Origin: Mycobacterium sp. MS1601
GTDB taxonomy: Bacteria; Actinomycetota; Actinomycetes; Mycobacteriales; Mycobacteriaceae
Length of the DNA stretch: 64,000 nucleotides
NCBI RefSeq assembly: GCF_001984215.1
Contig: NZ_CP019420.1
Location: forward strand, 2,914,001-2,978,000
Direction of reading: 5' to 3'
How positions within the stretch are numbered: the first letter of the stretch is position 1; each line of letters opens with the position of its first letter. Of the stretch, positions 165-42,941 are shown one piece after another. Position numbers and translations under genes: made by a program. The notes under the pieces are model-generated. The model saw nothing but the letters and a program-made list of their open reading frames with translations. It had not been told where the DNA came from and did no database searches.

Positions 165-353
165 AACCGGCGAAACTACCTGTGCCACATTGCGGACGAG
201 GAAACGGCGTGCGAATGGAGCCAGGCGGTCAGCCTGCTCCTTCGACGGTCCACAGCACCGCAAGTGGCCTCCAGGACCGGAATTCAGGTGGCCGATTGTC
301 GACTGCCACCGAACTGAAACGTGTTACAGTTCGCCGATCCGAACGAGGGGCTG

Positions 354-4682: not shown

Positions 4683-4694
4683 CACGCCACCATA

Positions 4695-4718
4695 GGAAAT
4701 TGACTTGCGTCAACTTTC
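4695..4718. promoter_or_regulatory. Palindromic operator upstream of the fadE pair
   Basis: Read on the minus strand, the core is TTGAC-GCAA-GTCAA, perfect 5-bp arms around a 4-nt centre at 4700-4713. It extends outward as GAAAg...tTTCc with 8 of 10 symmetric positions matching. It sits 13-36 nt upstream of the fadE start, where a repressor would overlap the promoter. Size and symmetry suit a TetR-type dimer. It does not match the KstR box (TnnAACnnGTTnnA) found elsewhere in this window. Confidence 0.55.
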
Positions 4719-4745
4719 GCCGGGGTCGCTGTTCTCGTCGCGAGC

Positions 4746-6448: not shown

Positions 6449-6499
6449 TCTCCACACAACCGACAAGGGTAGACGAGCTAACTGAGAGAAGACACCGCT

Positions 6500-7219: not shown

Positions 7220-7508
7220 GGGCTGATCCTCCGGCAGATGACGAGGTTGCCCAGACTACCGTCGATCGCCAAAGGCAGCCGAGACTGCGTCAGTTCGTTT
7301 GCCAAAGATGCTTGCCAATTGCTTCACATCGCAAAGGCTGCCCGTCGTCTGGAAACGCGGGATGAGCGTCAGCGCATCGAGCAGGGATTACTGATGAATC
7401 TATAGGGCGGAGCTGGGTCCTATAGTTGGTTGCTGGCCAGACGGACTCGGTTTGCCGGCCAACCGAGCTGGCCGATGTTGGTTCTGTTGCCGCTGACGGG
7501 AGTGGCGA
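7220..7508. other. Divergent intergenic region and GGDEF gene leader
   Basis: 289 nt between the divergent HAD and diguanylate cyclase genes. Two TTGCCAA direct repeats lie at 7299-7305 and 7312-7318. Two CTATAG hexamers lie at 7400-7405 and 7420-7425; TATAGT at 7421-7426 is a reasonable mycobacterial -10 for the rightward gene. An inverted repeat CTCGGTT-N8-AACCGAG (7446-7467) would fold in the leader of the cyclase mRNA, and GGGAG at about 7498-7502 is the Shine-Dalgarno for GTG 7509. I could not match the leader to a c-di-GMP riboswitch. Confidence 0.4.
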
Positions 7509-8645: not shown

Positions 8646-9254
8646 CTACGGAAGTGGTTGAGCCCCAGCAGGGTTCAGGGCATCGGCCATCAGGCTCAGA
8701 TAGCGGCGGCGGAGTTCGGCCGGCTGGTTGAGTGCCACCGTGGCCGTGGTGACCATCGCCACGAAGTTGGTCACATCGTCGGCGGTGATGTCCAGGCGCA
8801 GCTCGCCTTTCTGCTGGCCGCGCTCGACTACTGCCTCGACCAAGTCCTGGTTGCGGCGAAACAGTGTGACGGTGAGTTCGGACAGTTGGTCGAGCGAGGA
8901 CAGCAGGGGCCGCTGTTGCACCATGACGTCGGTGAGCCGCTCGATGACGTCGAGGAAGGATTCGCGCGGGGCATCGCTTTCCACCAGCGCGGTGATCACC
9001 GGCTGCACCTCGGTGAGGAAGATGTCCTCGTAGACGGCGGCCGCCAGCGCCTGCCGGTTGGGAAAGTGGCGGTACAGCGTGGCGTTGCCGACGCCGGCCC
9101 TGGCGGCGACGTCGGTGAGCGTGGCCGAGTCGCCGTGTGCCGAGAAGACGTCCTTGGCCGCCTCGACAATGCGGTTGACGTTGGCGAAGGCATCCGCGCG
9201 GCGACGCTTGGCCGGCGGCGCCTGGGGCGCGGTCTCGGTCACGGTGTTCTCCAC
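8646..9254 (-). CDS. TetR family transcriptional regulator (probable MmpL regulator)
   Basis: 202 residues. The N-terminal helix-turn-helix is VEAAKDVFSAHGDSATLTDVAARAGVGNATLYRHFPNRQALAAAVYE in the usual TetR position (residues ~30-75), followed by an all-helical ligand-binding domain. Start GTG 9254. It is divergent from the MmpL exporter, with 106 nt between them that contain a palindrome (9331-9345). By the common TetR-exporter logic it should repress the exporter until an unknown ligand, perhaps an exported lipid or drug, binds it. The ligand domain resembles the SbtR-like C-terminal type, but that is a weak impression. Confidence 0.88.
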   Translation of the reverse strand: MENTVTETAPQAPPAKRRRADAFANVNRIVEAAKDVFSAHGDSATLTDVAARAGVGNATLYRHFPNRQALAAAVYEDIFLTEVQPVITALVESDAPRESFLDVIERLTDVMVQQRPLLSSLDQLSELTVTLFRRNQDLVEAVVERGQQKGELRLDITADDVTNFVAMVTTATVALNQPAELRRRYLSLMADALNPAGAQPLP

Positions 9255-9330
9255 AGTGCAGTGCCTTCCCGAATTGTGGTCCGCGTCATCCTGTCAGGCC
9301 ACGGTGGCGTCGACGACAAATGATAGCCCA

Positions 9331-9345
9331 CTCCCATATTGGGAG
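9331..9345. promoter_or_regulatory. Palindromic operator between tetR and the MmpL gene
   Basis: CTCCCA-TAT-TGGGAG, perfect 6-bp arms with a 3-nt centre, lies 16 nt before the exporter ATG and 77 nt before the tetR start. A looser outer match (TAG...CTA) extends it to about 9324-9350. No Shine-Dalgarno is visible between the palindrome and ATG 9361, so the exporter mRNA may be leaderless or nearly so, with the operator covering its promoter. Confidence 0.55.
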
Positions 9346-9360
9346 CCTACTCTCAGTTGC

Positions 9361-11640: not shown

Positions 11641-11673
11641 GTTCGACGACCCGGCGTGCCGAGTGGGCGGCCG

Positions 11674-12270
11674 TCATGGGCCAGCCAGGCCGTTGCGCAG
11701 CTGAGCAAATCCTCTGTGCACCAGTGCTTCTGCTGATTCAGTCGGAGGCGGCGACTCGGCCAGCATCTCCACGATGGCGGCCGTGACGGCGCTGCAGGCG
11801 TGGTAGACCAGGCGCGGGTAGAGGTCGGTGTGCGGATCGGTGCCGGTGCGCCTGGCGATCTCGGCGACCATGCGCGCCGTCATCGCGTCGTGGGCCACCA
11901 TGGTCCTGGCGATCAGCGAGGGATATTGGCTCACCAGTCGCACCACGCTGACGGTGCGGTCCACCGCATCGGCGGAGGACACCAGTTCGCTCACCGCGGC
12001 GGCCAGGGAGTCCAGTACGTGTTCGTCGGGGTCGCGGAGCGCGAGAGTGTCGGCCACCTGGCGGTGGACGTCCTCGAGCAACGCCAGAATGGCGTCCTCC
12101 TTGCTGGAGAAATAGTTTCTGAACGTACGGGCGGACACGTGGGCACGTTCGGCGATGGCGTCGACGGTGACCGCGTCCAGGCCGTGCTGTCCGGCGAGGT
12201 CCAAGGCCGCCTTGCTCAGTGCGGCTCGGGTCTCGGCTTTCTTCTGCTCCCGCAATCCCACGCGCGCCAT
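11674..12270 (-). CDS. TetR family transcriptional regulator
   Basis: 198 residues from ATG 12270 (MARVGLREQKKAETRAAL). The helix-turn-helix is ALSKAALDLAGQHGLDAVTVDAIAERAHVSARTFRNYFSSKEDAILAL, the AcrR/EthR-like form. A longer start at ATG 12300 is possible. Divergent from the GH3 glycosidase gene with a perfect palindrome between them, so it probably controls that gene and itself. The convergent end lies 33 nt after the MmpL stop, so control of the exporter from here is unlikely. Confidence 0.87.
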   Translation of the reverse strand: MARVGLREQKKAETRAALSKAALDLAGQHGLDAVTVDAIAERAHVSARTFRNYFSSKEDAILALLEDVHRQVADTLALRDPDEHVLDSLAAAVSELVSSADAVDRTVSVVRLVSQYPSLIARTMVAHDAMTARMVAEIARRTGTDPHTDLYPRLVYHACSAVTAAIVEMLAESPPPTESAEALVHRGFAQLRNGLAGP

Positions 12271-31161: not shown

Positions 31162-31329
31162 CAGGTTAGCCCGGTCGATGAGCCGGCGAGGCACGAGCCG
31201 GGGAGGGAGGGCCGGGCTCCAGCAGGTTAGCCCGGTCGATGAGCCGGCGAGGCACGAGCCGGGGAGGGAGGGCCGGGCTCCAGCAGGTTAGCCCGGTCGA
31301 TGAGCCGGGCAGGCACGAGCCGGGCTGCA
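31162..31329. repeat. 61-bp tandem repeat array (about 2.75 copies)
   Basis: Copies start at 31162, 31223 and 31284, each with CAGGTTAGCCCGGTCGATG. The first two appear identical over 61 bp; the third diverges after about 25 bp and stops next to the following gene's stop. Each unit is GC-rich with internal self-complementary parts, for example CCGGGCT-N10-AGCCCGG across the unit junction (31212-31235) and GCCCGG-N7-CCGGGC in the third. The period is not a multiple of three and it fills the whole space between the PPOX and PaiB genes. It resembles a mycobacterial interspersed (MIRU/VNTR-type) repeat. Confidence 0.9.
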
Positions 31330-31722
31330 TCAGCCCAGCCCCCAAGTCCTCGTGCTCTCCACCGAGATCTCGATGACAGGGCCGTCGAGTGGAACCTGTT
31401 GGTACTGAGCATATTTAGCTCTGAGTGCGTGGAGTGCTTCGTTGTTCTCGCTGATGGTGGCCCGGCCGTCGACCCTGATCCACCAGAGTTGGGTCCAGTC
31501 CTCGTCATAGTGGTCGACCAGCAGGCTCACCTTGGGGTTGGCTGTGATGTTGCGCAGGCGCCTGAGCTTGGTGGTGGATTTCGGTTTGCCGTCGACGGCC
31601 GTGACGACGGCGTTCTGCCAGACGGCGAAGACGACCGGGACCAGGTGGGGTTGAGCATCGTCACCGACGGTCGCCAGCCTCGCGACCTTGGCCTCGATGA
31701 ATTTTTCGGGGAGTGCCACCAT
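31330..31722 (-). CDS. PPOX-class F420-dependent oxidoreductase family protein
   Basis: 130 residues, a single split-barrel domain: EAKVARLATVGDDAQPHLVPVVFAV, TAVDGKPKSTTKLRRLRNITANPKVSLLVDHYDEDWTQLWWIRVDGRA. The KPK-T-KLRRLRNI and LLVDHYDEDW patterns are those of the TIGR03668 F420-binding group found in mycobacteria. It probably reduces a small substrate with F420H2, or acts as an F420/FMN binding protein. Start ATG 31722, or GTG 31743 with VHTYSEL in front. The divergent LLM gene begins only 30 nt away, so both promoters are compressed. Confidence 0.85.
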   Translation of the reverse strand: MVALPEKFIEAKVARLATVGDDAQPHLVPVVFAVWQNAVVTAVDGKPKSTTKLRRLRNITANPKVSLLVDHYDEDWTQLWWIRVDGRATISENNEALHALRAKYAQYQQVPLDGPVIEISVESTRTWGLG

Positions 31723-31752
31723 CAGCTCAGAGTAGGTGTGCACACTTGGAGC

Positions 31753-32661
31753 ATGCAGATAAGCATGCTCGAGTACACCGGTGAACCCTTTTCCATCGAC
31801 GCCTACGTCACGCAGTTGGCGATGTTGCGCGATGAGGGTTTTGTCCGGGTGTGGAGCACCCAGCTTCCCTACGAGCGCGACCTGTTGACCGCGTTGGCCG
31901 TGGCGTTCCGCGAGGTGCCCGATATCGAGGTGGGCACTGGTGTGCTGCCGATACAGAATCAGCATCCGATGCTGATGGCTCAGCGGGTGCTGACCCTGAA
32001 TGCCATTGCAGGAGGACGTTTCACGCTCGGTATCGGGATGACCCACGCCGCTGTCGCCGAAGGCATGTGGGGCATTTCCTACGCCAAGCCGATCCGGCGC
32101 ATGAACGAGTACCTGGACGGCCTGCTGCCGCTGTTGAACGGCGAACCCGCCGATGTGTCAGGCGAGCTGGTGACCACGCGCGGGTCCGTCATGATTCCCG
32201 GCGCTCCCGCGCCTGACGTGTACATCGCAGCGCTGGGGCCGCAGATGCTCCGGCTGGCCGGCCGGCGGACCGCCGGGACGGTGACCTGGATGACCGGGCC
32301 CGCAACCCTGGGTTCCCATATCGGTCCCGTGATCCGTTCTGCGGCGGCCGAAGTCGGTCGTACTGCTCGAGTGGTGGCGGCCCTGCCGATCAGTGTCACC
32401 GACGACGTCGCCGGCGCCCGGGCGATGGCCGCCAAGCAGTTCGTGATGTACGGGCAGCTGCCGTCCTACCGGGCCATGTTGGACCGCGAGGGTTTCGCCG
32501 GCCCCGAGGACGCGGCATTGATCGGTTCTGAATCCGAGGTGTCCGAGCGCCTGGATGCTTTGCGCGACGCGGGGGTGGACGAATTCGTCGGAGCGACGTT
32601 CGAGCCGTCGCCCGAGGGTCGAGCACGGACGCGGGCGTTGCTGCGGAGTTGGGCGGTCTAG
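31753..32661 (+). CDS. LLM-class F420-dependent oxidoreductase
   Basis: 302 residues, luciferase-like TIM barrel. Features: LLTALAVAFREVPDIEVGTGVLPIQNQHPMLMAQRVLTLNAIAGGRFTLGIGMTH, the YAKPIRRMNEYLDGLLPLL stretch and the C-terminal LDALRDAGVDEFV. This is the LLM F420 oxidoreductase pattern (TIGR03564-like). The cofactor is F420; the substrate is unknown. Start ATG 31753; ATG 31765 in the same frame is equally possible. Divergent from the PPOX/F420 gene, so the two may be expressed together. Confidence 0.87.
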   Translation: MQISMLEYTGEPFSIDAYVTQLAMLRDEGFVRVWSTQLPYERDLLTALAVAFREVPDIEVGTGVLPIQNQHPMLMAQRVLTLNAIAGGRFTLGIGMTHAAVAEGMWGISYAKPIRRMNEYLDGLLPLLNGEPADVSGELVTTRGSVMIPGAPAPDVYIAALGPQMLRLAGRRTAGTVTWMTGPATLGSHIGPVIRSAAAEVGRTARVVAALPISVTDDVAGARAMAAKQFVMYGQLPSYRAMLDREGFAGPEDAALIGSESEVSERLDALRDAGVDEFVGATFEPSPEGRARTRALLRSWAV

Positions 32662-32678: not shown

Positions 32679-33662
32679 CTACTCGGCAAGCCCCAGTATC
32701 TGCACCGTGGTCTCACCGCGGTCGAGCCGGTCGATGATGCCCGCCTCGAACGCATCCCGCGCGCGTGCGGCGTCCAGGACCGTCGGCCAGGCGGCCGCGG
32801 GCACGGCAACAGCACCATCGCGGTCCGCGCGCACGATGTCGCCGTTGGTGATCGACGTTCCCGCGAAGCTCACCGTGGTGGCCACCTCGCCGGGTGTCAC
32901 TTTCGCCGCGGCAGTGATCGCGAGACGGGTGGACCACACCGGCAGGTCGAGCCGGAGGAGCTCATCGATGTCGCGCACACCGCCATCGACGAGAATGCCC
33001 ACGATGCCGCGACGCAGTGCGGCATTGACCAGCACATCGCCCACGTAACCGACAGCGACGTCTGCTCCGGCGACCACCAGCACGTCGCCCGGTCTGGCCT
33101 GCGCGACGGCGCGGTGCACCGCGAGGTTGTCTCCCGGCTGACACCGTGCCGTGAGTGCAGTTCCAAGCACTGCGGCCGCTCCAGCCCGGTGCAGCAATCC
33201 CCGGCTCTCACCTCGGCGTCCGTTCGCCTCGTACAGCGTGCTGACTCCGGGTACCTCCGACGGAGGGGGAAGCAGTCGGGCGATCTGCATCACCTCCACG
33301 CGTAGGCAGGGCAGGGGTTCGAAGAACGCAATACGCCTTGTGTCGGAAAGTGTTTCGATGACCTTCGGTGCGCCGATGAGGTGCGGCTGCCAGTCCGGAC
33401 TCGCGAGAAAACAATCCAGATCATTGGTCTCGAGACTGACATGGGACCACCCTGTGGCCACGTCTGCGTCGGTGAAGATCGGCTGGACGAACAGGTTGAC
33501 CGCCGTCTCGCCGATCTCCACCTGGAGATAGGCGGTGCCGTCGGCCCTGCCGTCCCCGACCACCCGTGATCCGATGGTGTCGCAGAAGAATGCGCGTGCC
33601 ACCTCGAGGTCGGGGACCACGCCGCCAACATTGACGAGACGGAGGAAGGGTGTGCCTATCAT
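32679..33662 (-). CDS. VOC (glyoxalase-like) domain fused to RraA-like aldolase domain
   Basis: 327 residues with two folds. Residues ~5-135 form a VOC/glyoxalase domain (LVNVGGVVPDLEVARAFFCDTIGSRVVG, GWSHVSLETNDLDCFL, FFEPLPCLRVEVMQI). Residues ~145-327 form an RraA / HMG-aldolase-like domain (VSTLYEANGRRG, RCQPGDNLAVHRAVAQARPGDVLVVAGA, the metal/substrate motif ILVDGGVRDIDELLRLDLPVWS). RraA-fold enzymes are Mg-dependent aldolases or decarboxylases acting on 2-oxo acids; VOC domains are also metal enzymes. No frameshift or stop separates them, so the fusion is real in this sequence. It follows the DUF3500 gene by 3 nt in the LacI-linked locus and probably acts late in the pathway. Confidence 0.85.
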   Translation of the reverse strand: MIGTPFLRLVNVGGVVPDLEVARAFFCDTIGSRVVGDGRADGTAYLQVEIGETAVNLFVQPIFTDADVATGWSHVSLETNDLDCFLASPDWQPHLIGAPKVIETLSDTRRIAFFEPLPCLRVEVMQIARLLPPPSEVPGVSTLYEANGRRGESRGLLHRAGAAAVLGTALTARCQPGDNLAVHRAVAQARPGDVLVVAGADVAVGYVGDVLVNAALRRGIVGILVDGGVRDIDELLRLDLPVWSTRLAITAAAKVTPGEVATTVSFAGTSITNGDIVRADRDGAVAVPAAAWPTVLDAARARDAFEAGIIDRLDRGETTVQILGLAE

Positions 33663-33665
33663 CGG

Positions 33666-34823
33666 TTACTTGTTCTCCATGCTCTCTGGGTGCTCTGAGA
33701 AGTAGTGGGCGCGAAGCACATCGGTCGCGAAGTCAGTACGACGACTGCGCAGTGCGCTGTGGATGTGGTTCGCGGCGTTCTGGGTGTTGTCGAACTCGAT
33801 GGAGATGGCCGCTGAATCGAAGCAGTAATACCGTCCCACGCCGTTCTGGGTGGATCCGGCCCACGCGAAGCGCAGGTCCGCGGGAAGCGCGTCGCCGGCT
33901 TGCCAACCGAAGACATCGCGATGGATGTCGGCGGGAAACCGGAGCACGTAGTGCTGCAGAAGCTCGGCAACGAGTTGTTGCCCGGCGGGTGCCAGAGTGG
34001 CCACGGCGAGCCCGCGTTGTGACGGCGCGCTCCTGCTGAACTCGACAAGACCGCCCGAGGGGTCGGCCACCGTGGCCATGTGGCCGGAAAGTCCCAGCTG
34101 TGCAAGGAAATCGAGTACATCTGCCCGATCCGCCGTTGCCGGATACAGATCGGCGGGCGGATCGGGCAGAGCCCGGTCATCCACCAGTGGGCGGTTACCC
34201 TGCAAGATGTCCGCCGGTGCGATGGTGTCGAACACCGCGTCCGAACGCTGTTGATCGGTGAAGGTGTCCAACAGCTCGATGGCGATCTCCTCCTCGCCGC
34301 GAAGAGGCTGGAAGCGATTGCGTCCGAGCGAGGGTGCGACGGCGGGGTTGACTCCGATGAAGTGGGGAGTGGCCGAGACCACGGTGCCGTTCTCGACGAA
34401 GGCATGCACCACGAGGTGGTGGCCGGCGAATTGCCAACCCCATTCCCGCGAAGCGGGATCGCCGTAGATCTTGACGTAGTAGAGCAGTGGATCGCGACTG
34501 CGACCGTGACCGGGGCGCCCCGGATACAGATCCATCCAGCCTTCCTCGTAGGCGAGGTAGTTCTCCAGGCCCATGATGTAGGTGGCCAGCGAGTAGCCCG
34601 CCTCGCTGAGTCCGCTGCGCAGAAGGCGAAGCGCCCGTTGCTGATCGGCCGGGTCCATGTCCACGAGCGGGAGTCCGTCCCGTTCCGCCGGTGTGAAGAA
34701 CCAGACCGCGGTGCGGCGAGCCGATGCCGGGACGACGACGCGCGTCCGTTGTCCGGGAGGTAACGCCTGTAAGAACGCGGTGGCCTCGGACCTCATCCTG
34801 GCGACCGTCGATCCTGCCGTCAT
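33666..34823 (-). CDS. DUF3500 domain protein
   Basis: 385 residues. Matches DUF3500 by RTAVWFFTPAERDGLPLVDMDPADQQRALRLLRSGLSEAGY, DPLLYYVKIYGDPASREWGWQFAGHHLVVHAFVENGTVVSATPHFIGVNPA and the C-terminal YYCFDSAAISIEFDNTQNAANHIHSALR. The family is widespread in bacteria that degrade plant or complex organic matter, but its activity is not established. The invariant GHH and late His residues look like a metal or catalytic site (inference). No clear signal peptide from ATG 34823. It leads a two-gene unit with the VOC-RraA fusion and faces the divergent isomerase operon across two LacI-type sites. Confidence 0.83.
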   Translation of the reverse strand: MTAGSTVARMRSEATAFLQALPPGQRTRVVVPASARRTAVWFFTPAERDGLPLVDMDPADQQRALRLLRSGLSEAGYSLATYIMGLENYLAYEEGWMDLYPGRPGHGRSRDPLLYYVKIYGDPASREWGWQFAGHHLVVHAFVENGTVVSATPHFIGVNPAVAPSLGRNRFQPLRGEEEIAIELLDTFTDQQRSDAVFDTIAPADILQGNRPLVDDRALPDPPADLYPATADRADVLDFLAQLGLSGHMATVADPSGGLVEFSRSAPSQRGLAVATLAPAGQQLVAELLQHYVLRFPADIHRDVFGWQAGDALPADLRFAWAGSTQNGVGRYYCFDSAAISIEFDNTQNAANHIHSALRSRRTDFATDVLRAHYFSEHPESMENK

Positions 34824-34888
34824 CTCTGTCCCTTCTGTTGCCGTCTAGCCCTGAGAGGTGCCGTACGAGCTGTAAGTAAACCAAAAGA

Positions 34889-34905
34889 AATCGATTTCAT
34901 TCTGC
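34889..34905 (-). promoter_or_regulatory. LacI-type operator, copy 1 (DUF3500 side)
   Basis: On the minus strand GCAGAATGAAATCGATT, identical at 16 of 17 positions to copy 2. It contains the perfect 12-bp palindrome GAAATCGATTTC (34887-34898) with the central CG pair typical of LacI/GalR operators. It lies 66 nt upstream of the DUF3500 start. Confidence 0.72.
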
Positions 34906-35045
34906 GGTTCCTCCCCGTTGCGTCATCGCGAACCGTGTTACGGCATCTGAAAAGGCCTTACTGAGAGCCCTTATGGCCTTTGAAAAGTCATTCGGCGGTG
35001 TCCACCGCTTGACAAGGGCCGAGTGAGCTTAAACAATCGTGGCAT

Positions 35046-35062
35046 GCGGAATGAAATCGATT
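35046..35062 (+). promoter_or_regulatory. LacI-type operator, copy 2 (isomerase side)
   Basis: GCGGAATGAAATCGATT on the plus strand, the same 17-nt sequence as copy 1 with one change and in opposite orientation, so each copy points toward the gene unit it precedes. It ends 10 nt before ATG 35073; the right half of the palindrome here is GTACGG rather than TTTC. The two copies are 157 bp apart, about 15 helical turns, which would allow repression by looping. Confidence 0.72.
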
Positions 35063-35072
35063 GTACGGCTCG

Positions 35073-35864
35073 ATGAGACTGTCGGCGACGGCCGTCATCT
35101 ATCCGGAAGGCGCACTCGATGCTGCGCTCACCGACATCCACACCGCGGGGCTGGACGGCATCGAGCTGCAGGGCCATCACATCCGATGGCTGACCGCCGT
35201 ACCGGCGCGCGTGGCGCAGTTCCGCCGTCGGCTCGAGGACACCCAACTGGTGGTGAGCGCACTCATGCTCGGTTACCTCTTCGACGACGCGTCACACGAT
35301 GCTCACCTCGCCGTCCTGGACCTCGGCGCGGAACTCGGCAGCCGGGTGATACCGATCATGGCGCCCAGGCCCGGAATGGTCGAGCTACCCCGCTACTACG
35401 AACTACTCGAACAGATTGCTTCGCGTGCAGCGGATTCCGGTACAGTTCTGGCCGTCCACCACCATCTCGGCACCCTGATCAACACTCCCGAGCAGATCGA
35501 TGCGTTTGTTTGCGCCATCGGTGGGCACACCGGCATCGGCCTGTGCCTCGATACCGCTCACTTGGCCCTGCACGGCACCGACATCGCCCCCGCGGTCGCG
35601 CGCTGGGCCCCATCTGTGACACACGCGCACGTGAAGGATCTCCGACCCGATGCGCGCATTGATGTGTGCACTGCTGGCGCCCGAGCAGCTCAACATGCCT
35701 TCCGGACACCGGGGGACGGGGTTCTCGATTTCGGCGGGGTGCTACCGGCGCTCCTGCGCTCCGATCCGCCACCCTGGCTCAGCGTCGAAATCGAAACCTT
35801 CCACCGCCCACCGCTCGAATCGCTGCGCACCGCCGCAGCCACTCTCAGAGGAGTCCCACGATGA
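35073..35864 (+). CDS. Sugar phosphate isomerase/epimerase family TIM-barrel protein
   Basis: 263 residues from ATG 35073 (MRLSATAVIYPEGAL). Xylose isomerase-like AP endonuclease 2 fold: DGIELQGHHIRW, LAVHHHLGTLINTP (metal-ligand His), IGLCLDTAHLALHGTD and VTHAHVKDLRP (metal-ligand Asp/His/Lys), ending WLSVEIETF with a Glu ligand. Such enzymes isomerise or epimerise sugars, inosose or hydroxypyruvate using a divalent metal. First gene of the rightward operon; its stop overlaps the next ATG (ATGA). An upstream TTG at 35061 is less likely because it falls inside the operator. Confidence 0.87.
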   Translation: MRLSATAVIYPEGALDAALTDIHTAGLDGIELQGHHIRWLTAVPARVAQFRRRLEDTQLVVSALMLGYLFDDASHDAHLAVLDLGAELGSRVIPIMAPRPGMVELPRYYELLEQIASRAADSGTVLAVHHHLGTLINTPEQIDAFVCAIGGHTGIGLCLDTAHLALHGTDIAPAVARWAPSVTHAHVKDLRPDARIDVCTAGARAAQHAFRTPGDGVLDFGGVLPALLRSDPPPWLSVEIETFHRPPLESLRTAAATLRGVPR

Positions 35865-37048
35865 CTGTCCGAGCAGCACTCATCGGCCTAGGCTTCGCCA
35901 CTCAGGAGCTCAAGCTCCCCGGGTATCTCGCCGAAGACAACGTCGACGTGGTCGCCATCGCCGATCCCGATCCGAAGGCGCGTGCGGCGGTGGCCGAGCG
36001 GCTCGGTCTGGGCAAGAGCCAGCAGTTCAGCTCTTACGAAGAGCTCATCGGCACAGCCGAAGTCGACTACGTGGATGTCTCGACCCCACACGCAACTCAT
36101 CTCCCGATCTTCCGTCTGGCGGCGGCGTCGCAGGTATCGGTGGTGTGCGACAAGCCGATTGCCATGTCCATCGCCGAAGTTGACGAGATGATCGGCCTGG
36201 TCGAGCGTTCCGGGATCCGGGCCGGAGTGCACCACAACTTCATGCACTTCCCCTCGCACGCCGAAATGCTCAGGCAGGCGCGGGCGGGTGCGGTCGGTCG
36301 GGTGGAGTCGGTGTCGATGGGCGCCAATTCCATCTACGCCCCGGGGGTGCTGCCCGGTGACACCGGGTGGAGGGCCACGGCACGGTTTGCCGGCGGCGGC
36401 ATCCTGATGGATTACGGCATCCACCTGCTCTACCTCTCACTCAACCTGCTGGGTGAGGATTTTGTGCCCAGGACCGTCACCGCCCGTGCCGACAAACGGC
36501 GGATCCGCGAGGACGCCGACGTCGAGGACACGGTGATGGTCCACGTCGAGGGAACCGACGGACGCACCGCCACCCTGACATTGATGTGGGGAACGGGAAC
36601 CAGCGGACACACCCTGGTCGACGGATCCGAGGGCAGTATGGTGATCCACCACGCCAGCGGTCACTCAGCCCAGCACAACGTCGCCGACGAGATCCGCGTG
36701 GTGCGAACCCGCGACGACGCAGGTACCACTGTCCCGATAGAGTGGGAGCGGCTTCCCCTCACCTGGTACTACGGCGGTTCGATCGCGTCGTTCGCGCAAT
36801 ACGTGCAGACCGGAACACCCACGGGTGTGGCGACGTTGGACACAGCCCGCACCACCGTGTCGCTGGCACTGTCCGCCTACGAATCGATCGCCCTGGACCG
36901 TCCGGTAGAGGTCCCACTGGCGCCGTCCTCGCCGCTCTACAGCCTGGGCATCGTGGGGATCCGTGATCTGCCCATTGCCGCGGGCAACGTCATCCTCACC
37001 CGAGACCTGTACAGGCGGTGTGAGAAGGCACCGGGGGACCCGGCATGA
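35861..37048 (+). CDS. Gfo/Idh/MocA family oxidoreductase
   Basis: 395 residues from ATG 35861, with AGAGGAG eight bases upstream. The Rossmann domain is AALIGLGFATQELKLPGYLAEDNVDVVAIADPDPKARA (GxGxxxxE variant). The conserved VVCDKPIAMSIAEVDEM carries the EKP-type catalytic lysine as DKP. The C-terminal beta-sheet domain includes GGGILMDYGIHLLYLSL (GG-x-L-x-D-x-G-x-H). It is an NAD(P)-dependent dehydrogenase of a sugar, inositol or related polyol. The Gfo/Idh/MocA and TIM-barrel isomerase pair is the core of many inositol and sugar-acid pathways. The stop overlaps the ABC ATPase start by 4 nt. Confidence 0.9.
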   Translation: MTVRAALIGLGFATQELKLPGYLAEDNVDVVAIADPDPKARAAVAERLGLGKSQQFSSYEELIGTAEVDYVDVSTPHATHLPIFRLAAASQVSVVCDKPIAMSIAEVDEMIGLVERSGIRAGVHHNFMHFPSHAEMLRQARAGAVGRVESVSMGANSIYAPGVLPGDTGWRATARFAGGGILMDYGIHLLYLSLNLLGEDFVPRTVTARADKRRIREDADVEDTVMVHVEGTDGRTATLTLMWGTGTSGHTLVDGSEGSMVIHHASGHSAQHNVADEIRVVRTRDDAGTTVPIEWERLPLTWYYGGSIASFAQYVQTGTPTGVATLDTARTTVSLALSAYESIALDRPVEVPLAPSSPLYSLGIVGIRDLPIAAGNVILTRDLYRRCEKAPGDPA

Positions 37049-38136
37049 CCGGTGGGGGCGCGCCGTCGGTAGGTTCCGGTGCCGGCGGTTCGCCGAAGCA
37101 CGGCGCGAAGGTCGAGATCGAGGGCCTGAAGAAGAGCTATGACGGAAACCATTGGGCAGTCCAGGACCTCGATCTGGTTATCGAGCCCGGCGAGTTCGTC
37201 ACCATCCTGGGCCCCAGCGGTTCGGGCAAGACGACTGCCCTGATGATGCTTGCCGGGTTCGAGACCCCCACCGCCGGCTCGATCCGGCTCAACGGCACCG
37301 CGGTCGATCGGCTGCCCGCCTACAAACGCAACATCGGCATGGTTTTCCAGAGCTACGCGCTGTTCCCGACCATGAGCGTCGAGGACAACATCGCCTACCC
37401 CCTCAAGATGCGCAAGATCCCCAAGGCCGAACGCACCCGCCTGGTCGACGCCTCCCTGGAACTGGTTCAGCTGCAACAACACCGGCGAAAACGGCCCAAC
37501 CAACTCTCCGGCGGCCAGCAGCAGCGCGTCGCCCTGGCTCGGGCGACGGTGTTCACGCCCGGCCTGTTGCTCATGGATGAGCCCCTCGGGGCACTCGATC
37601 GCAAACTGCGCCAGACCATGCAGAACGAGATCGCCAACATCCACCGCACCCTCGGTGTCAGTGTCGTCTCGGTGACCCATGACCAGGAGGAGGCGCTGAG
37701 TCTCTCCGATCGGGTGCTCATCATGGCCGAGGGGCGCATGCAGCAGCTGGGCACGCCGGTCGAGATCTATGAGAAACCAGCCAATGCGTTTGTCGCCGAC
37801 TTCATGGGTGAGGCGAATGTCCTGGCGGTCAGCGGCAGTCGTTTGGCTGAATCAGCAATCCGGACAGTGGGACCGGGCGGCACCGCCCACCTCAACGGTG
37901 CCGCACAAGCCAGCGTGCGCCCGGAGATGATTCTCCTGCAAGCGGATCCCGCGGGTGAGGGCATCATAGACAGCGTCACCTATTGTGGCAGCACCGTCCG
38001 CTACGAGGTGGTGCTCCCCAGCCGGGAACGCGTGGTCGCGCGTCGGCAAGCCAGTCCCGAGATCACCCAGTTCTCGCGCCGGGACCGGGTTTCGCTGAGC
38101 GTCACCGCCGACGCCATCGTCGCGTTGGCGGACTGA
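37045..38136 (+). CDS. ABC importer ATP-binding protein (PotA-like)
   Basis: 363 residues. Walker A GPSGSGKTTALMML (about residues 57-70), Q-loop NIGMVFQSYALFP, signature LSGGQQQRVALARA, Walker B LLLMDEPLGALD, H-loop VTHDQEEAL, then a C-terminal TOBE domain (about 270-360) for regulation. PotA/CysA/FbpC-type import ATPase. It couples ATP hydrolysis to the two permeases immediately downstream. Start overlaps the dehydrogenase stop by 4 nt. Confidence 0.92.
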   Translation: MTGGGAPSVGSGAGGSPKHGAKVEIEGLKKSYDGNHWAVQDLDLVIEPGEFVTILGPSGSGKTTALMMLAGFETPTAGSIRLNGTAVDRLPAYKRNIGMVFQSYALFPTMSVEDNIAYPLKMRKIPKAERTRLVDASLELVQLQQHRRKRPNQLSGGQQQRVALARATVFTPGLLLMDEPLGALDRKLRQTMQNEIANIHRTLGVSVVSVTHDQEEALSLSDRVLIMAEGRMQQLGTPVEIYEKPANAFVADFMGEANVLAVSGSRLAESAIRTVGPGGTAHLNGAAQASVRPEMILLQADPAGEGIIDSVTYCGSTVRYEVVLPSRERVVARRQASPEITQFSRRDRVSLSVTADAIVALAD

Positions 38137-38146
38137 GGTGGGCAGC

Positions 38147-39040
38147 GTGAATCTGGCCACCGTCGCACGCGGAGGTGACGCGGGCTCGCCGCAGCGCCAG
38201 CGTCCCAACCGGCGGCACCTCGGTCTCCTGCCGCTGCTGGTGTTCTATGCGGCGCTGCTGGTGTATCCGATGTGCCTGGTGGCCTCGCGTGCCTTCACCA
38301 GCGCCGACACGGGCGCGTTCACACTGGAGAATTTCACCAGGCTCGTCACCGAGCCGGTGTTTCGCAACGTCATCGTCGACACGCTGCGCGTCGCCACCAT
38401 CACCACGGTGTGCTGTGTCGTCCTGGGTTACACAGTGGCCTACGTGATCTGCCACCTCGGGCCCATGGGCCGGTTCCTGGAGGCACTGGTGATCATTCCG
38501 CTGATGACCAGCGTCCTGGTACGCGCCTTCGTGTGGATCGCACTGCTGGAAGATCGCGGGATCGTCAACACGACGTTGATGAAAATAGGCATCACAGATG
38601 CGCCAATAACGTTGGTGTACAACGAAACCGGCGTCCTCATCGGAATGGTCCACGTGATGCTGCCGTTCACCATCATTCCGATGATTGCGGTGTTCCGTTC
38701 GATCGACCCACGTTTAGCTCAGGCATCCGAATCGTTGGGCGCCAACCCGTGGTCCACATTCTGGCGGGTATACCTGCCACTGAGCATGCCGGGCGTCGCC
38801 GCCGGCGGCGCACTGTGTTTCGTACTCTCCCTGGGCTTCTTCACCACTCCGGCGATGCTGGGCGGTGGGCAGACGATGCTGCTCGCCCAGTTGATCGACG
38901 TGCAGATCCAGCGACTGCTGCAGCTCAACCAGGCCAGCGCTCTGGCGCTGAGTCTTGTCGTCTTGGCACTGATCGTCTGGCTGCTGGTCACGGCACTGCG
39001 TCGAGTGCGCCGACTGACTGGAACGGACCGTGCACAGTGA
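38147..39040 (+). CDS. ABC importer permease (PotB-like)
   Basis: 297 residues from GTG 38147, with GAGG eight bases upstream; GTG 38138 is the alternative. Six membrane helices. The permease EAA loop that docks the ATPase is FRSIDPRLAQASESLGANPWSTFWRVYLPLSMPGV (about 190-225). PotB/spermidine-putrescine-type integral membrane subunit, working with the next permease as a heterodimer. The stop overlaps the next start by 4 nt. Confidence 0.9.
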   Translation: MNLATVARGGDAGSPQRQRPNRRHLGLLPLLVFYAALLVYPMCLVASRAFTSADTGAFTLENFTRLVTEPVFRNVIVDTLRVATITTVCCVVLGYTVAYVICHLGPMGRFLEALVIIPLMTSVLVRAFVWIALLEDRGIVNTTLMKIGITDAPITLVYNETGVLIGMVHVMLPFTIIPMIAVFRSIDPRLAQASESLGANPWSTFWRVYLPLSMPGVAAGGALCFVLSLGFFTTPAMLGGGQTMLLAQLIDVQIQRLLQLNQASALALSLVVLALIVWLLVTALRRVRRLTGTDRAQ

Positions 39041-39837
39041 CGCCCTTCAGAATCGGTCGCGTACTTTTGATCGCCTTCGCCTTCGCGGTGCTGATCTTCC
39101 TGTTCGCCCCGACCGTGCTGGTGTTCGGGATGGCCTTCAACGCCGCTCCCGACCTTTCGTTTCCGCCGAGCGGGTTCTCACTGCAATGGTTCGAGAGCTA
39201 TTTCTCCAATCGCGCGTGGATGGAGGCGACCACTCGCAGCGCGATCATCGGCGTCAGTGCGACGGTGTTGTCGGTGTTCATCGGCACGGCCGCCGGGATA
39301 GGACTCGCCAAGACCCGTGGACGGGCGTTCGCCGTGATGAGTGCCGTCATCGGCCTGCCACTGGTGCTGCCCGCAATCGTCCTCGGACTGGCGCTCTTCG
39401 ACTTGTATTCACGCCTGCAGGTGGTCGGCAATATGTTCGCGGTGATCCTGGCTCACACGCTGCTGGGTATTCCCTACGTCTTCGTCAACGTGATCGCGAG
39501 CTTCACGAAGTTCGATTTCCGCCTGGAGCAGGCCGCGCAGGGACTCGGCGCGCACCCGCGACGATCGTTGGTCGACGTGACTCTGCCGGGAATCATGCCG
39601 GGGATCGTGGCCGGAGGCTTCTTCGCGTTCATCGCGAGCTGGGACGAGCTGGCGGTCACCATGCTGATCGCGGGGACCGACACCCGAACGCTCCCAGTGG
39701 TGATGTTCAGTGGTATCAGGTTCAACGTCGATCCCACCATTGCCGCGGTGGCGGCGGTGCTCACGGCGGTGGTGCTCGTCATGGCCGTCCTGCGAACACT
39801 CCTGGAACGCCGGCTCCAACGCGGCATTCGCCAGTGA
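39037..39837 (+). CDS. ABC importer permease (PotC-like)
   Basis: 266 residues, six membrane helices starting at GRVLLIAFAFAVLIFLFAPTVLV. EAA loop: FDFRLEQAAQGLGAHPRRSLVDVTLPGIMPGI (about 160-190). Second permease of the importer, start GTG 39037 overlapping the previous stop (GTGA). The next gene, the binding protein, follows after 66 nt. Confidence 0.9.
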   Translation: MTPFRIGRVLLIAFAFAVLIFLFAPTVLVFGMAFNAAPDLSFPPSGFSLQWFESYFSNRAWMEATTRSAIIGVSATVLSVFIGTAAGIGLAKTRGRAFAVMSAVIGLPLVLPAIVLGLALFDLYSRLQVVGNMFAVILAHTLLGIPYVFVNVIASFTKFDFRLEQAAQGLGAHPRRSLVDVTLPGIMPGIVAGGFFAFIASWDELAVTMLIAGTDTRTLPVVMFSGIRFNVDPTIAAVAAVLTAVVLVMAVLRTLLERRLQRGIRQ

Positions 39838-39903
39838 AAACAGTTGTATCCCAGTCTTACTCAGACCCGGTATGTGACCGGCTGACCAACGAAAGGAAAT
39901 GAC

Positions 39904-40965
39904 GTGAAGGTCCACAAGATGGTTGCGGTCTCGTCGGTGGCGCTTCTGGCGGTCGTCGGCTGCTCCTCGGCAACCCAGGAGGGGAATGGTTCAGCAGGCA
40001 CCGGTACGCAACCGGAATCTATTGTGGTCGCCGGTTACGGCGGCACCTTCTCCGATGCGCAGCGTGTTGCCTACTACGAACCCTTCACCACCGAGACCGG
40101 TATCGGCATCGTCGAAGCCGAGACCAGTATCGCAGCACTGCAGTCTCAGGTGGACACGGGCAACGTCCAATGGGACGTCATGGTGTTGTCGACCACCGAC
40201 CTGGCGCAGGGGACGGCGAATGACCTCTTCGAGAGTGTCGATGGTGTGGTGGATCCGGCGAACTTCGTCACAGACACCGTGACCGATTACGGTATCGGGC
40301 TGGACTTCTCCTCGAACGTGCTCGCGTGGAACACCGAGAAGATCGGCTCTGCGGCTCCGCAGTCCTGGAGTGACTTCTGGGATTTCGACAAGTTCCCCGG
40401 CAAGCGCGCGGTTCCGTCGTGGGGCCCTGATGCCCAGTTGTTCGAATTCGCCTTGCTCGCTGATGGTGTCGCGATGGACAGCCTCTATCCACTCGACGTC
40501 GACCGCGCGCTGCGCAAGCTCGAGGAGCTGCGCGACGACATGATCGTCTACGACTCCAACGCTCAGGGACTCCAGCTGGTCACCGGGGGACAGGCCGACA
40601 TGGCCCTTCTGCCCAACGGGCGGGTGGAGCTCGCTGCCAGGTCCAGCATGCCGATCGACTTCACGTTCAACGAAGGTGCGTTGGTGGTGGACTGGGCCGC
40701 CATTCCGAAGGGCGCACCGAATGCCGACGCGGCGAAGGAGTTCCTGCGCTTCGCGACCGAGGTTCCCCAGCAGCAGGCCTTCCTCGCCCAGATCCCCTAC
40801 TCCGGAACCAACACCGGTTCACTGGAGGGGCTGTCGCCGTCGGTTCTGCGCACACTGCCCACCAACGAAGAGGCGATGGCGGTGCAGTTCCGTCCCGATG
40901 CAGCGTATTACGCAGAGCACGGTTCTGAACTGGTCACGGCCTGGCAGGGTTTCCTCTACGGCTAG
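39904..40965 (+). CDS. ABC importer substrate-binding lipoprotein (PotD-like)
   Basis: 353 residues. Type II signal peptide with lipobox VALLAVVGCSS (lipid-modified Cys about 20), then a family 1 / PotD-type two-lobe binding domain: VVAGYGGTFSDAQRVAYYEPFTTETGIGI, WDVMVLSTTDLAQG, WNTEKIGSAAPQSWSDFWDFDKFPGKRA. PotD-like receptors bind polyamines, but close relatives bind opines, sugar-like or carboxylate ligands, so the ligand is open. Start GTG 39904 with AAAGGA about six bases upstream. It is anchored outside the membrane facing the two permeases. Confidence 0.9.
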   Translation: MKVHKMVAVSSVALLAVVGCSSATQEGNGSAGTGTQPESIVVAGYGGTFSDAQRVAYYEPFTTETGIGIVEAETSIAALQSQVDTGNVQWDVMVLSTTDLAQGTANDLFESVDGVVDPANFVTDTVTDYGIGLDFSSNVLAWNTEKIGSAAPQSWSDFWDFDKFPGKRAVPSWGPDAQLFEFALLADGVAMDSLYPLDVDRALRKLEELRDDMIVYDSNAQGLQLVTGGQADMALLPNGRVELAARSSMPIDFTFNEGALVVDWAAIPKGAPNADAAKEFLRFATEVPQQQAFLAQIPYSGTNTGSLEGLSPSVLRTLPTNEEAMAVQFRPDAAYYAEHGSELVTAWQGFLYG

Positions 40966-41065
40966 GCGCGGCTGATAATCTTCCCCCCATTCGTACATTC
41001 TCGACTACGCATCCAGCGCTCCAGAGTGACAAGATGTTTCCCTTTCCCGAGTTACGGAACAAACC

Positions 41066-42070
41066 GTGAAGCCTCCCACCATCTATTCCATCGCTGAAGA
41101 GTTGGGTCTTTCGCCGGCCACCGTCTCGCGGTCCCTGAATGGTTCGCCGAGGGTGACCGAGAAGACCCGTGACCGGGTGCTGCGCGCGGCGGAGAACCAG
41201 GGGTACATCCGCAACCAGCAGGCGCGTGCGCTGCGGCAGACCAGTACGCGGATGATCGGTCTGCTGGTTCCCGATCTGACCTCAGAAGTGTTCAACGTGC
41301 TGGCATCGTGCATCCAGCTCGAGCTGCACGAGCGAGGTTATGGCCTGATCATCGGGCAGTCGCTCAATCAGGCCGAGCTCGACCGGAACTACCTGCAGGC
41401 ATTCCAGAGTCAGAAGGTCGACGGCATCCTCCATGCACCGTGCACACCACACGGCGTCGACGACACCTTTGCCACAGTCCCTGTTCCCGTTGTCGAGATC
41501 ATCCGCGAGAGCGACGGACAGCCCAGAGACTCGTTCTGCAATGCCGATATCAACGACGCCGTGCTCCTCACCTCGTACTTGGCCCGCCGCGGCTATGAGG
41601 AGATCTTCGTCGTGCTCGGCCCGCAGGAGTTCAGCAGCGCACGACTGCGCGGTGAGGGAGCGGGCAGAGTCACCGCCGCTCACCCAGGCGTGGCAGTGCA
41701 TCTCTGCCACGGGCCTTTCACCGAAGAGTGGGGCTACCAGGTCGGAGCACAGGTGGCGGCCGCGAGTCAGACCGGCAGCGCTCGGGTCGGTATTGCCGTG
41801 ACCAGCAATACCTTCATGGCCGGTGTTCTCGGTGCGTTGAAGGATCGTGGTGTCAGGGCGCCGAAGGACGTCGGAATCGTGGGGATGGAAGATCCGAACT
41901 GGTACCGGGTCGCGGATCCGCCGATCACCGCGGTGGCCGGGCCGACCTGGGAGCTCGGAAAACAGGCGAGCCGTAAGCTGCTCGAGCTCATTGAAGATGG
42001 CCAGGGCGCTGGACCGGTCACACGCACCGAACTGCATGGCGTCCTGCGTGAGCGCGAGTCGACGATGTGA
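41066..42070 (+). CDS. LacI family transcriptional regulator
   Basis: 334 residues. LacI helix-turn-helix TIYSIAEELGLSPATVSRSLNGSPRVTEKTRDRVLRAAENQGYIRN (residues 4-48) with the hinge helix following, then a periplasmic-binding-like effector domain: TRMIGLLVPDLTSEVFN, IGQSLNQAELDRNYLQAFQSQKVDGIL, VGIVGMEDPNWYRVADPPITAVAGPTWELG. Last gene of the importer locus, 100 nt after the lipoprotein. The two ATGAAATCGATT-containing sites between the divergent operons are its likely operators. Binding of the imported compound or a metabolite should relieve repression. No copy of the site is seen at its own promoter. Confidence 0.92.
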   Translation: MKPPTIYSIAEELGLSPATVSRSLNGSPRVTEKTRDRVLRAAENQGYIRNQQARALRQTSTRMIGLLVPDLTSEVFNVLASCIQLELHERGYGLIIGQSLNQAELDRNYLQAFQSQKVDGILHAPCTPHGVDDTFATVPVPVVEIIRESDGQPRDSFCNADINDAVLLTSYLARRGYEEIFVVLGPQEFSSARLRGEGAGRVTAAHPGVAVHLCHGPFTEEWGYQVGAQVAAASQTGSARVGIAVTSNTFMAGVLGALKDRGVRAPKDVGIVGMEDPNWYRVADPPITAVAGPTWELGKQASRKLLELIEDGQGAGPVTRTELHGVLRERESTM

Positions 42071-42134: not shown

Positions 42135-42941
42135 TTACTCGGCCGACTGTGCAGCCTTCACCAAAGCTACCGTCGCAGCACGCATTTCACTCACGGCATT
42201 CAGGCGCTGCGGGTATCCGACTCGCGTGTAGGCGACCCCGCGTGGCGTCGTCACCTTGAGATCCAAGCCGTACCGATCAGCCCCGGTGCACAACGCGGCC
42301 GTCGCATCGGGGAACCCGCCGAGCGCCTGGGCCATCACGGCAAGGGAATCGGCATGGTCGGCATTCAGATGCGCGATGGCGCCGGAAGCTTCCAGTGTCA
42401 CCGGATCCGGTTCAGCCGCAGCGTAGTCCGAGCCGACAGCCGAATCCATCCGACCGTATCCGCCGACCCAGCGGACACGATTGACCCGCAGCACCCACAA
42501 GGCGAAGTCGCTGTAGTCGATGTAGTACTTGGCGGCAGGCACGGCGGCCACATGTGCGGCGCGGGCAGCCTGCAACTCTGCACCGACCGGGTGCTCCACG
42601 ACACCGGCCAGCGTGATGCGGGCATTGGCCAGCGGATCGGTATCGGTGGCGGGGGCGACGACGGCGATGCTGGCGCGCGGATCCCCGGCGAGGTTGCGAC
42701 CGTGCTCGGCCATGTGCGACACACACAGCACGGGGGAGCCGTCGTCGAGCAGGCCGTAGGTCACCAGCGAGGCCCACGGGTCGCCGTCACCGGTGAGTGA
42801 CGCGAGAATCCCGGTGTTGGTCGAGGCGGCGATGGTGCGGGCCTCTTCGGCGGCCGACGGCCGCACAGGATTGACGGCTTCGGTCAGCGGTGCAGGAATG
42901 GACGGCGCATCACCGGGATCGCCGTGGTCACGGTTCGCCAC
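42135..42941 (-). CDS. HugZ-type PPOX/DUF2470 protein (possible heme-binding)
   Basis: 268 residues. N-terminal split-barrel (about residues 30-170: ILASLTGDGDPWASLVTYGLLDDGSPVLCVSHMAEHGRNLAGDPRASI) and a C-terminal DUF2470 helical domain (IAHLNADHADSLAVMAQALGG, about 190-265). The same two-domain layout occurs in HugZ/HutZ heme-degrading or heme-binding proteins, with a conserved His in the DUF2470 part (HLNADHAD). Role in heme iron release is plausible but not certain in mycobacteria. Start GTG 42941; it lies 3 nt downstream of the hydrolase gene stop on the same strand. Confidence 0.82.
   Translation of the reverse strand: MANRDHGDPGDAPSIPAPLTEAVNPVRPSAAEEARTIAASTNTGILASLTGDGDPWASLVTYGLLDDGSPVLCVSHMAEHGRNLAGDPRASIAVVAPATDTDPLANARITLAGVVEHPVGAELQAARAAHVAAVPAAKYYIDYSDFALWVLRVNRVRWVGGYGRMDSAVGSDYAAAEPDPVTLEASGAIAHLNADHADSLAVMAQALGGFPDATAALCTGADRYGLDLKVTTPRGVAYTRVGYPQRLNAVSEMRAATVALVKAAQSAE

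Follow-up and report, generated by a model that had tools for sequence, protein, structure and literature searches.

Which compound is imported and degraded by the nine genes at positions 32679-42070 of the window, i.e. of the whole 64,000-nt stretch of DNA that was analysed? The genes form two divergent units flanking a 249-nt control region (Table 1). This arrangement, with two near-identical 17-nt sites in the shared region, had been proposed in the first-pass annotation and was confirmed; the two sites differ by a single base. The answer we consider best, with a probability of roughly 0.45, is a self-contained cassette under LacI control, serving the import of a single small, ring-shaped compound (a polyol or sugar-like) and its degradation by oxidation, two dehydrations and aldol cleavage.

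Table 1. Features of the locus, in window coordinates.
Feature	Position	Strand	Evidence
VOC-RraA fusion	32679..33662	-	PF03737 116 bits; 3noj match; D-X20-R-D-X2-E; VOC by model only
DUF3500 protein, predicted as likely dehydratase or other lyase	33666..34823	-	
Divergent control region, 249 nt	34824..35072		
Putative LacI-type operator 1, GCAGAATGAAATCGATT	34889..34905	-	
TTGACA, conserved, putative -35 element of TIM/Gfo/importer unit	35009..35014	+	
Putative LacI-type operator 2, GCGGAATGAAATCGATT, core conserved in Leucobacter	35046..35062	+	
IolE-like TIM barrel (AP_endonuc_2), predicted as likely dehydratase	35073..35864	+	PF01261 87.3 bits
Gfo/Idh/MocA dehydrogenase	35861..37048	+	PF01408 70.7 bits; DKP at residue 97
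PotA-type ABC ATPase	37045..38136	+	Profile matches
PotB-type permease	38138..39040	+	Profile matches
PotC-type permease	39037..39837	+	Profile matches
Lipoprotein receptor	39904..40965	+	PF13416 132.7 bits
LacI-family regulator	41066..42070	+	PF00356 and PF13377, both above cut-off

The operator core is TGAAATCGATTG, and TTGACA is positioned 43 bp upstream of the core of operator 2. Two-mismatch matches to the core also occur inside genes of the 64-kb window (n=3, at 34309, 40652 and 43074); in a control using the window composition alone, chance would produce 2.05 such matches per 64 kb. All nine genes are present, in changed order, in Leucobacter massiliensis and L. chromiiresistens, which belong to another family. 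The nine proteins of these two loci (L088 and L089) are 48-74% identical to those of the window, the LacI proteins 60-63%, and the flanking genes that were examined differ. Each Leucobacter locus carries the operator core at two control regions, in pairs 121-129 bp apart; three of the eight cores are exact, three have one mismatch and two have two mismatches. TTGACA lies 43 bp upstream of the operator core in L088 and 45 bp in L089. A LacI protein and a near-palindromic operator common to different genera, as expected of a LacI regulon, are thus both found.

In protein searches with about 8,000 candidates scored each, the window Gfo protein had very few close relatives (8 at E<=1e-60 among the matches listed), and VOC-RraA fusions of full length were likewise very rare. 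Matches to Gfo, DUF3500 and VOC-RraA were found on contigs of equal size (34,821 and 217,513 nt), and Gfo and VOC-RraA matches also both on a 9,464-nt contig, co-location being judged only where contig sizes allow matching. Because the nine genes and the operator core recur in Leucobacter, and because rare fusion and Gfo relatives share contigs with DUF3500, the locus is, by these comparisons of sequence, a real LacI-type uptake-and-catabolism cassette. Gene content, linkage and the shared operator thereby support the earlier proposal of one regulon joining uptake and catabolism, and the co-occurrence of DUF3500, VOC-RraA, Gfo and importer, which that proposal left to be checked in relatives, holds in both Leucobacter genomes. 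The patchy occurrence indicates that the cassette probably spread horizontally. No Gfo relatives were found on plasmids at E<=1e-30. DUF3500 is found in 33 plasmid records, every one below 60% identity, and in seven of these (L051-L057) the other eight cassette genes were absent by phmmer.

The DUF3500 protein scores 224.8 bits with its profile (PF12006, cut-off 27.2) and carries the residues HH, E, D and H.H that are invariant in an alignment of 62 sequences. These are also kept (HH135-136, E343, D345, H353 and H355) in PDB entry 9x86 (ApmL/Amc20), the sole solved DUF3500 relative found, which is a dehydratase by its entry title. The cassette protein has the ApmL-type fold and shares the HH...E.D...H.H core. 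The relationship is distant, with 35% identity in the VIA structural alignment and 25% in the other structural alignment; ApmL is also a shorter chain (297 residues) and belongs to antibiotic (amipurimycin) biosynthesis. Nothing besides 9x86 stood out in the fold comparison, which excludes no fold. A second lead is AN10530 of Aspergillus nidulans gallate metabolism, described in a review (PMC12388069) as DUF3500-containing and downstream of the hydroxylase PhyA, with a proposed dioxygenase activity on 1,2,3,5-tetrahydroxybenzene. The initial statement that DUF3500 has no assigned activity is therefore out of date, and the two leads conflict: a dehydratase by the title of an antibiotic-pathway entry, a dioxygenase by proposal in a fungus. 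From our analysis, the cassette protein is likely a dehydratase or other lyase. DUF3500 matches occur in 143 of 397 genomes of this bacterial order (protein search) and in 26 of 396 across the phylum (profile search).

A Gfo/Idh/MocA dehydrogenase and an IolE-type TIM barrel are shared with the myo-inositol (iol) cluster, which is under LacI control in some hosts. Unlike that cluster, the nine genes include no IolD-type TPP enzyme or kinase, and DUF3500 and VOC-RraA are added. Against our best reading, the TIM barrel scores 83.9 bits with the IolE model TIGR04379 (cut-off 290) and the Gfo protein 72.5 bits with the IolG equivalog (cut-off 355), both far under cut-off. Since IolE and IolG are below cut-off and the host IolD, above its own, is elsewhere in the genome (C1:4273050), housekeeping use of inositol was rejected. 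The TIM barrel has the motif HHHxGT (HHHLGT, residue 129) common to 3cny and 9zmu, and because it is IolE-like with this motif, a dehydratase is more likely than an isomerase. The order 'isomerise, oxidise, cleave' given in the first-pass annotation thus has to be revised, as such an enzyme points to dehydration after oxidation. Where the cassette TIM barrel has HHHxGT, the IolE-like proteins of a sibling locus (L113) and of the host genome, there near IolD, read HPHADS; their identity to it is only 23%. The IolE-like (129.8 bits) and IolG-like (364.4 bits) genes of L113, both below cut-off, are directly upstream of DUF3500, and a LacI gene lies behind DUF3500 on the opposite strand. The rhizopine moc genes likewise combine a MocA-type dehydrogenase with an IolE-like partner; to our knowledge they contain no DUF3500 or RraA.

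The fusion consists of an N-terminal VOC-like fold (about residues 1-129, by model only) and a C-terminal RraA domain (about 139-322). The RraA half matches the HMG/CHA aldolase 3noj of protocatechuate degradation, which has no VOC-like domain fused to it, and carries the class II aldolase motif at residues 209-234; we take D-X20-R-D-X2-E/D to be the motif of RraA-type HMG/CHA aldolases. With the HMG/CHA aldolase model TIGR02798 it scores 131.4 bits, below the cut-off of 304.5. The putative metal positions of the VOC half, assigned by eye after those of glyoxalase, are N11, N56, H74 and E123, invariant in six fusions; with these residues the VOC half may be inert. It resembles HPPD and methylmalonyl-CoA epimerase, a likeness that leaves its function undecided.

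The importer has a gene set of the same kind as the PotABCD-type polyamine importer, and its ATPase scores 336.5 bits with the PotA subfamily TIGR01187, below the cut-off of 355.6. The best solved relative of the receptor is 4eq7, others including 6dgv, 6hly, 5l9s and 5l9g.

Within this frame, LacI would repress both units through the paired operators, one of them just downstream of a promoter, until a ligand frees it; the pairing suggests DNA looping. The PotABCD-type importer would bring the compound in, and the Gfo/Idh/MocA enzyme would oxidise one of its ring hydroxyls to a ketone. One water would then be lost through the IolE-like TIM barrel and a second through DUF3500, acting like ApmL, so that the product is an aromatic ring or a highly unsaturated enol. 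The VOC half and DUF3500 are the candidates for opening the ring, after which the RraA half would split a 4-hydroxy-2-oxo acid into two acids of central metabolism. A narrower version, in which the two dehydrations turn an oxidised cyclitol-like ring into a polyhydroxybenzene that is then opened and passed to the gallate-type aldolase fused to VOC, seems quite unlikely. Chemically this route is allowed: myo-inosose yields 1,2,3,4-tetrahydroxybenzene when dehydrated in acid, and the 1,2,3,5 isomer can be reached from a benzylated inosose by base elimination (PMC11467972).

Neighbourhoods of DUF3500 were surveyed at 107 loci, the genome loci being the best 80 of 346; L070, L071, L072 and L075 are close kin. 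At 11 loci, DUF3500 had an RraA gene no more than 5 kb away. The contigs of L058/L102 and L060/L163 are of equal size and were taken as the same contigs, so that at most 105 of the 107 loci are distinct and the RraA linkage becomes 10/105, or 8/103 without the two Leucobacter cassettes. Gfo (5/107 loci; 3/107 within 5 kb) and the TIM barrel (4/107; 1/107 within 5 kb) are at these counts rare partners. The survey profiles were small (Gfo 6, TIM 6, flavin hydroxylase 4 and RraA 78 sequences, 76 of the last taken from one of the protein searches) and built partly from the same loci, so some matches are built in; a phmmer search using nothing but the window proteins recovered the same 11 RraA loci.

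The commoner neighbour is a flavin hydroxylase, and this bears on the alternative that DUF3500 is an O2-dependent ring-cleaving enzyme, Gfo and the IolE-like protein making a polyhydroxylated aromatic or enediol ring and RraA cleaving the product in a gallate-type lower pathway. The hydroxylase count varies with the threshold: 27 of 93 loci, 34 of 107 within 5 kb at E<=1e-5, or, above 200 bits, 28 of the 106 tree rows plus L120 (grouped under RraA). That of L090, the only one tested, is most like 2,6-dihydroxypyridine hydroxylase (2vou). Such a setting is as compatible with ring cleavage as with dehydration; the proposed AN10530 dioxygenase and the RraA half, nearest the aldolase of the protocatechuate route, also favour cleavage. 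The fungal activity is, however, a proposal, 9x86 is titled a dehydratase, and the nine cassette genes include no hydroxylase. Moreover, the cassette DUF3500 proteins form a separate clade on a long branch (SH-aLRT 100) outside the group with hydroxylase-linked members (support 88), in a quick tree with several long branches from which L102 and L163 (duplicates) and rows below 300 residues (by our count L057) were omitted. We regard ring cleavage by DUF3500 as doubtful.

A glycoside, uronate or other sugar derivative as substrate is unlikely. Gfo would then oxidise C3, the TIM barrel and DUF3500 would eliminate from the 3-keto sugar and RraA would cleave a 2-keto-3-deoxy acid. This is consistent with the top Gfo model, D-xylose dehydrogenase Gfo6 (76.0 of 350 bits), the best solved Gfo relative, aldose-aldose oxidoreductase 5a02 (80.8 bits), and weaker Gfo matches to levoglucosan dehydrogenase (55.5 bits) and to glycoside 3-dehydrogenases (18-23 bits). 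A weak match also links the TIM barrel to the 2-hydroxy-3-keto-glucal hydratase 8ro4 (29.6 bits), and in the amipurimycin pathway, to which ApmL belongs, a deoxy-keto sugar has been proposed as an intermediate. Yet HHHxGT favours IolE over 8ro4, and the nine genes encode neither a glycosidase nor a DUF1080/DgpB-type partner. Very unlikely, finally, is an amino-acid conjugate (opine-, mycosporine- or peptidyl-sugar-like) whose ring part is handled as above, for which the GABA-sensor, agropine- and mannopine-binding proteins among the receptor's solved relatives speak, as does a Peptidase_S58 gene between operator pair and receptor gene in L. massiliensis. However, the Arg aligned with that of the GABA receptor, presumably its carboxylate-binding residue, is present in the window receptor and kept in neither Leucobacter receptor; a GABA-like ligand was rejected for this reason. 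The window's nine genes include no peptidase, transaminase or deaminase, the receptor-DUF3500 gap in L089 is only about 300 nt, so that no S58-type gene lies between, and the three S58 genes of the own genome are far from the cassette. Mycosporine uptake was considered and had no support among the literature matches listed.

In the literature on DUF3500 and on the gene combination, available in part and queried with combination terms that were perhaps too narrow, no characterised pathway with the full set was found, in line with the original view that the combination is not a described pathway. The cassette in three hosts links DUF3500 to a defined dehydrogenase, an IolE-like enzyme, an aldolase and a receptor, and its substrate and reaction therefore become open to stepwise testing. 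If the aromatising route were true, catabolism of cyclitols, i.e. of sugar-like rings, would be newly joined to aromatic lower pathways.

The genome collection (84,980 species) was scanned once with a DUF3500 alignment, and the best 80 of 346 loci were retained. Two of these, L088 from Leucobacter massiliensis and L089 from L. chromiiresistens, carry 9/9 cassette genes. The first-pass annotation had linked DUF3500, VOC-RraA and the Gfo/Idh/MocA dehydrogenase (Gfo) to a LacI in the window, and in both loci the whole nine-gene set is linked. Identity between window and Leucobacter proteins is lowest for the IolE-like TIM barrel, at 48-49%; Gfo, the ATPase and the permeases reach 69-74%, and the other four proteins (VOC-RraA, DUF3500, the receptor, LacI) 58-64%. 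Gene order differs from that of the window, with receptor and LacI lying in Leucobacter on the strand opposite to the remaining seven genes. Flanking genes are unlike among the three hosts (7 scanned in Leucobacter, 2 in the window), and therefore the nine genes appear to be the conserved unit. The two genes bordering the cassette in the window (see table) were not found among the scanned Leucobacter flanking genes. Cassette GC content (64.1%) is below the 66.1% of the window as a whole.

The predicted operator core TGAAATCGATTG recurs in all three hosts (see table). Each Leucobacter locus has an operator pair in both of its control regions, spaced 121-129 bp, and the window has one pair, 164 bp apart, between its two units. 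In 20 simulated trials using the window composition, chance hits per 64 kb were 0 for exact, 0.05 for one-mismatch and 2.05 for two-mismatch sites; the two-mismatch sites are thus supported by position and not by score. A TTGACA lies upstream of the proximal core, at 43 bp in the window and L088 and at 45 bp in L089. Judged from sequence, this layout would fit LacI repression just downstream of a promoter, and DNA looping between the paired predicted operators is possible. By our own judgement, the linkage of the nine genes and the shared operators are strong claims (probability about 0.95). A Peptidase_S58 gene lies within L088; none is among the nine genes of the window, and L089 has no room for one at the corresponding place. 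The window's own genome has three S58 genes, located elsewhere than the cassette.

Coordinates and scores of features in the cassette loci and in other DUF3500 loci
Feature	Locus	Position	Strand	Remark
Operator, exact	window	35052
Operator, exact	L088	1123
Operator, exact	L089	2545, 9923
Operator, one mismatch	window	34888
Operator, one mismatch	L088	1000, 9774, 9897
Operator, two mismatches	L089	2424, 9794
Operator, two mismatches, additional	L088	8348		upstream of receptor gene
Peptidase_S58 gene	L088	8507-9763	minus	between operator pair (9774, 9897) and receptor gene
Luciferase-like monooxygenase and CREG/PNPOx-DUF2470 genes	window	31300-32661 and 42135-42941		cassette flanks
Sibling system of the cassette	L113 (actinobacterial MAG)	1-7487
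IolE-like gene	L113			first, before IolG-like and DUF3500; 129.8 bits of 290
IolG-like gene	L113			between IolE-like and DUF3500; 364.4 bits of 540, inositol/chiro-inositol dehydrogenase model
LacI gene	L113		opposite	behind DUF3500; divergent from the next two genes
Levoglucosan-dehydrogenase-like gene	L113			253.1 bits of 650
Second TIM barrel	L113			with the preceding gene
DUF3500 with flavin hydroxylase	L090	6455-11119		and 26 further loci of one cluster
Stand-alone RraA immediately upstream of DUF3500, LysR gene downstream	L150 (Mycolicibacterium)	9148-12061
Same arrangement	L163 (Mycolicibacterium wolinskyi)	9145-12102
Zinc alcohol dehydrogenase adjoining DUF3500	L146 (Nocardia)	8815-11107		score does not reach the threonine or scyllo-inosose dehydrogenase cut-off

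Protein searches covered 5.8 billion proteins, and about 8,000 best candidates were scored in each. Among these, full-length VOC-RraA fusions number six entries including the window's own, the other five being 58-81% identical to it; the other 76 listed matches cover little of the query beyond the RraA domain (48-65% of its length). For DUF3500, six entries stand close together at 58-100% identity, well ahead of the next match at 38%. With Gfo as query, 8 relatives reach E<=1e-60, and identity is 63-94% for six of these. With contigs equated by size only, all three proteins occur together on a 34,821-nt contig of a Mycobacterium MAG and a 217,513-nt contig of L. massiliensis, and VOC-RraA and Gfo on a 9,464-nt contig. 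A search of 60 genomes belonging to the window's genus gave a DUF3500 of one kind or another in 4 (G000, G008, G018, G033). The G033 protein (locus L074; 31% identity) belongs to a different type, the G018 one has a low score, and the G008 one is cut off by the end of its contig and too partial for typing. From this patchy occurrence we infer that the cassette spread horizontally.

The neighbourhood survey covered 107 DUF3500 loci, of which no more than 105 are distinct: 11 have RraA <=5 kb from DUF3500, 5 have Gfo anywhere in the locus and 4 have a TIM barrel. The 20 genomes of L058-L077 hold 48 RraA matches in about 133 Mb (rounded sizes), and by hand calculation about 0.08 of 20 loci would have RraA within 5 kb, versus 5 observed (L060, L070, L071, L072, L075; four are kin). 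The tree requires at least 4 label changes between RraA-linked and hydroxylase-linked rows (67 unlabelled rows left out), so a single origin without loss is insufficient for the RraA linkage. The cassette DUF3500 proteins fall in a clade by themselves (SH-aLRT 100), which sits on a long branch apart from the main group that holds the hydroxylase-linked rows (support 88). By clustering, a flavin hydroxylase occurs in 27/93 loci; a single one was set against solved structures, where it comes closest to 2,6-dihydroxypyridine hydroxylase. Families scanned by one representative each include a PPOX/F420-like protein (22/93) and an acetolactate-synthase-like TPP enzyme (16/93). Clustered relatives of the Nocardia zinc alcohol dehydrogenase occur somewhere in six further Nocardia loci (L143, L148, L153, L159, L160, L161).

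The best solved match of the TIM barrel is IolE 3cny (52.4 bits), with which it shares an HHHxGT motif absent from the weaker match 8ro4; against TIGR04379 it reaches 83.9 bits, far under the 290 cut-off. Two IolE-like proteins, one encoded in L113 and one next to IolD in the window's own genome, are 23% identical to it and have HPHADS instead, so the motif by itself is not decisive. Gfo keeps the DKP motif, which we take to be catalytic, and no close characterised relative was found among the family models and solved structures searched. The RraA half keeps the class II aldolase motif, and its nearest solved relative is the HMG/CHA aldolase 3noj. Among solved structures the receptor falls in one group with 4eq7, the GABA sensor and the binding proteins for agropine and mannopine. 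An arginine of the GABA site is present in the window's receptor and not conserved in the Leucobacter ones, so these relatives do not point to one ligand.

The predicted DUF3500 model (pLDDT 89.6) has one clear solved match, 9x86, entitled 'Crystal Structure of dehydratase ApmL in Amipurimycin biosynthesis', whose chain is named Amc20. The dehydratase label comes from the PDB title; the passages covered on amipurimycin and related enzymes do not describe ApmL. It is at odds with the dioxygenase role that, according to a review (PMC12388069), was proposed for an A. nidulans DUF3500 protein, from 1,2,3,5-tetrahydroxybenzene to 5-hydroxydienelactone. On the dehydratase reading, Gfo would oxidise the substrate, the IolE-like enzyme would remove water, DUF3500 would dehydrate again and RraA would perform aldol cleavage. 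This order is a reasoned proposal, to which we give slightly less than an even chance. Loss of two waters from inosose to give tetrahydroxybenzene has been achieved chemically (PMC11467972), and the cassette may offer a candidate cellular route. Plain myo-inositol is unlikely as the main substrate, since IolD of the own genome (over cut-off, 910.8 bits) lies away from the cassette.

The first-pass annotation did not recognise the combination as a described pathway, and the literature searched for DUF3500 and for the combination gave no description of the enzyme set. The most telling neighbour is L113, which supports, independently of the window, the view that DUF3500 in clusters of this sort acts on a cyclitol or sugar ring. 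The cassette is real, well bounded and catabolic, and its general kind is already known.
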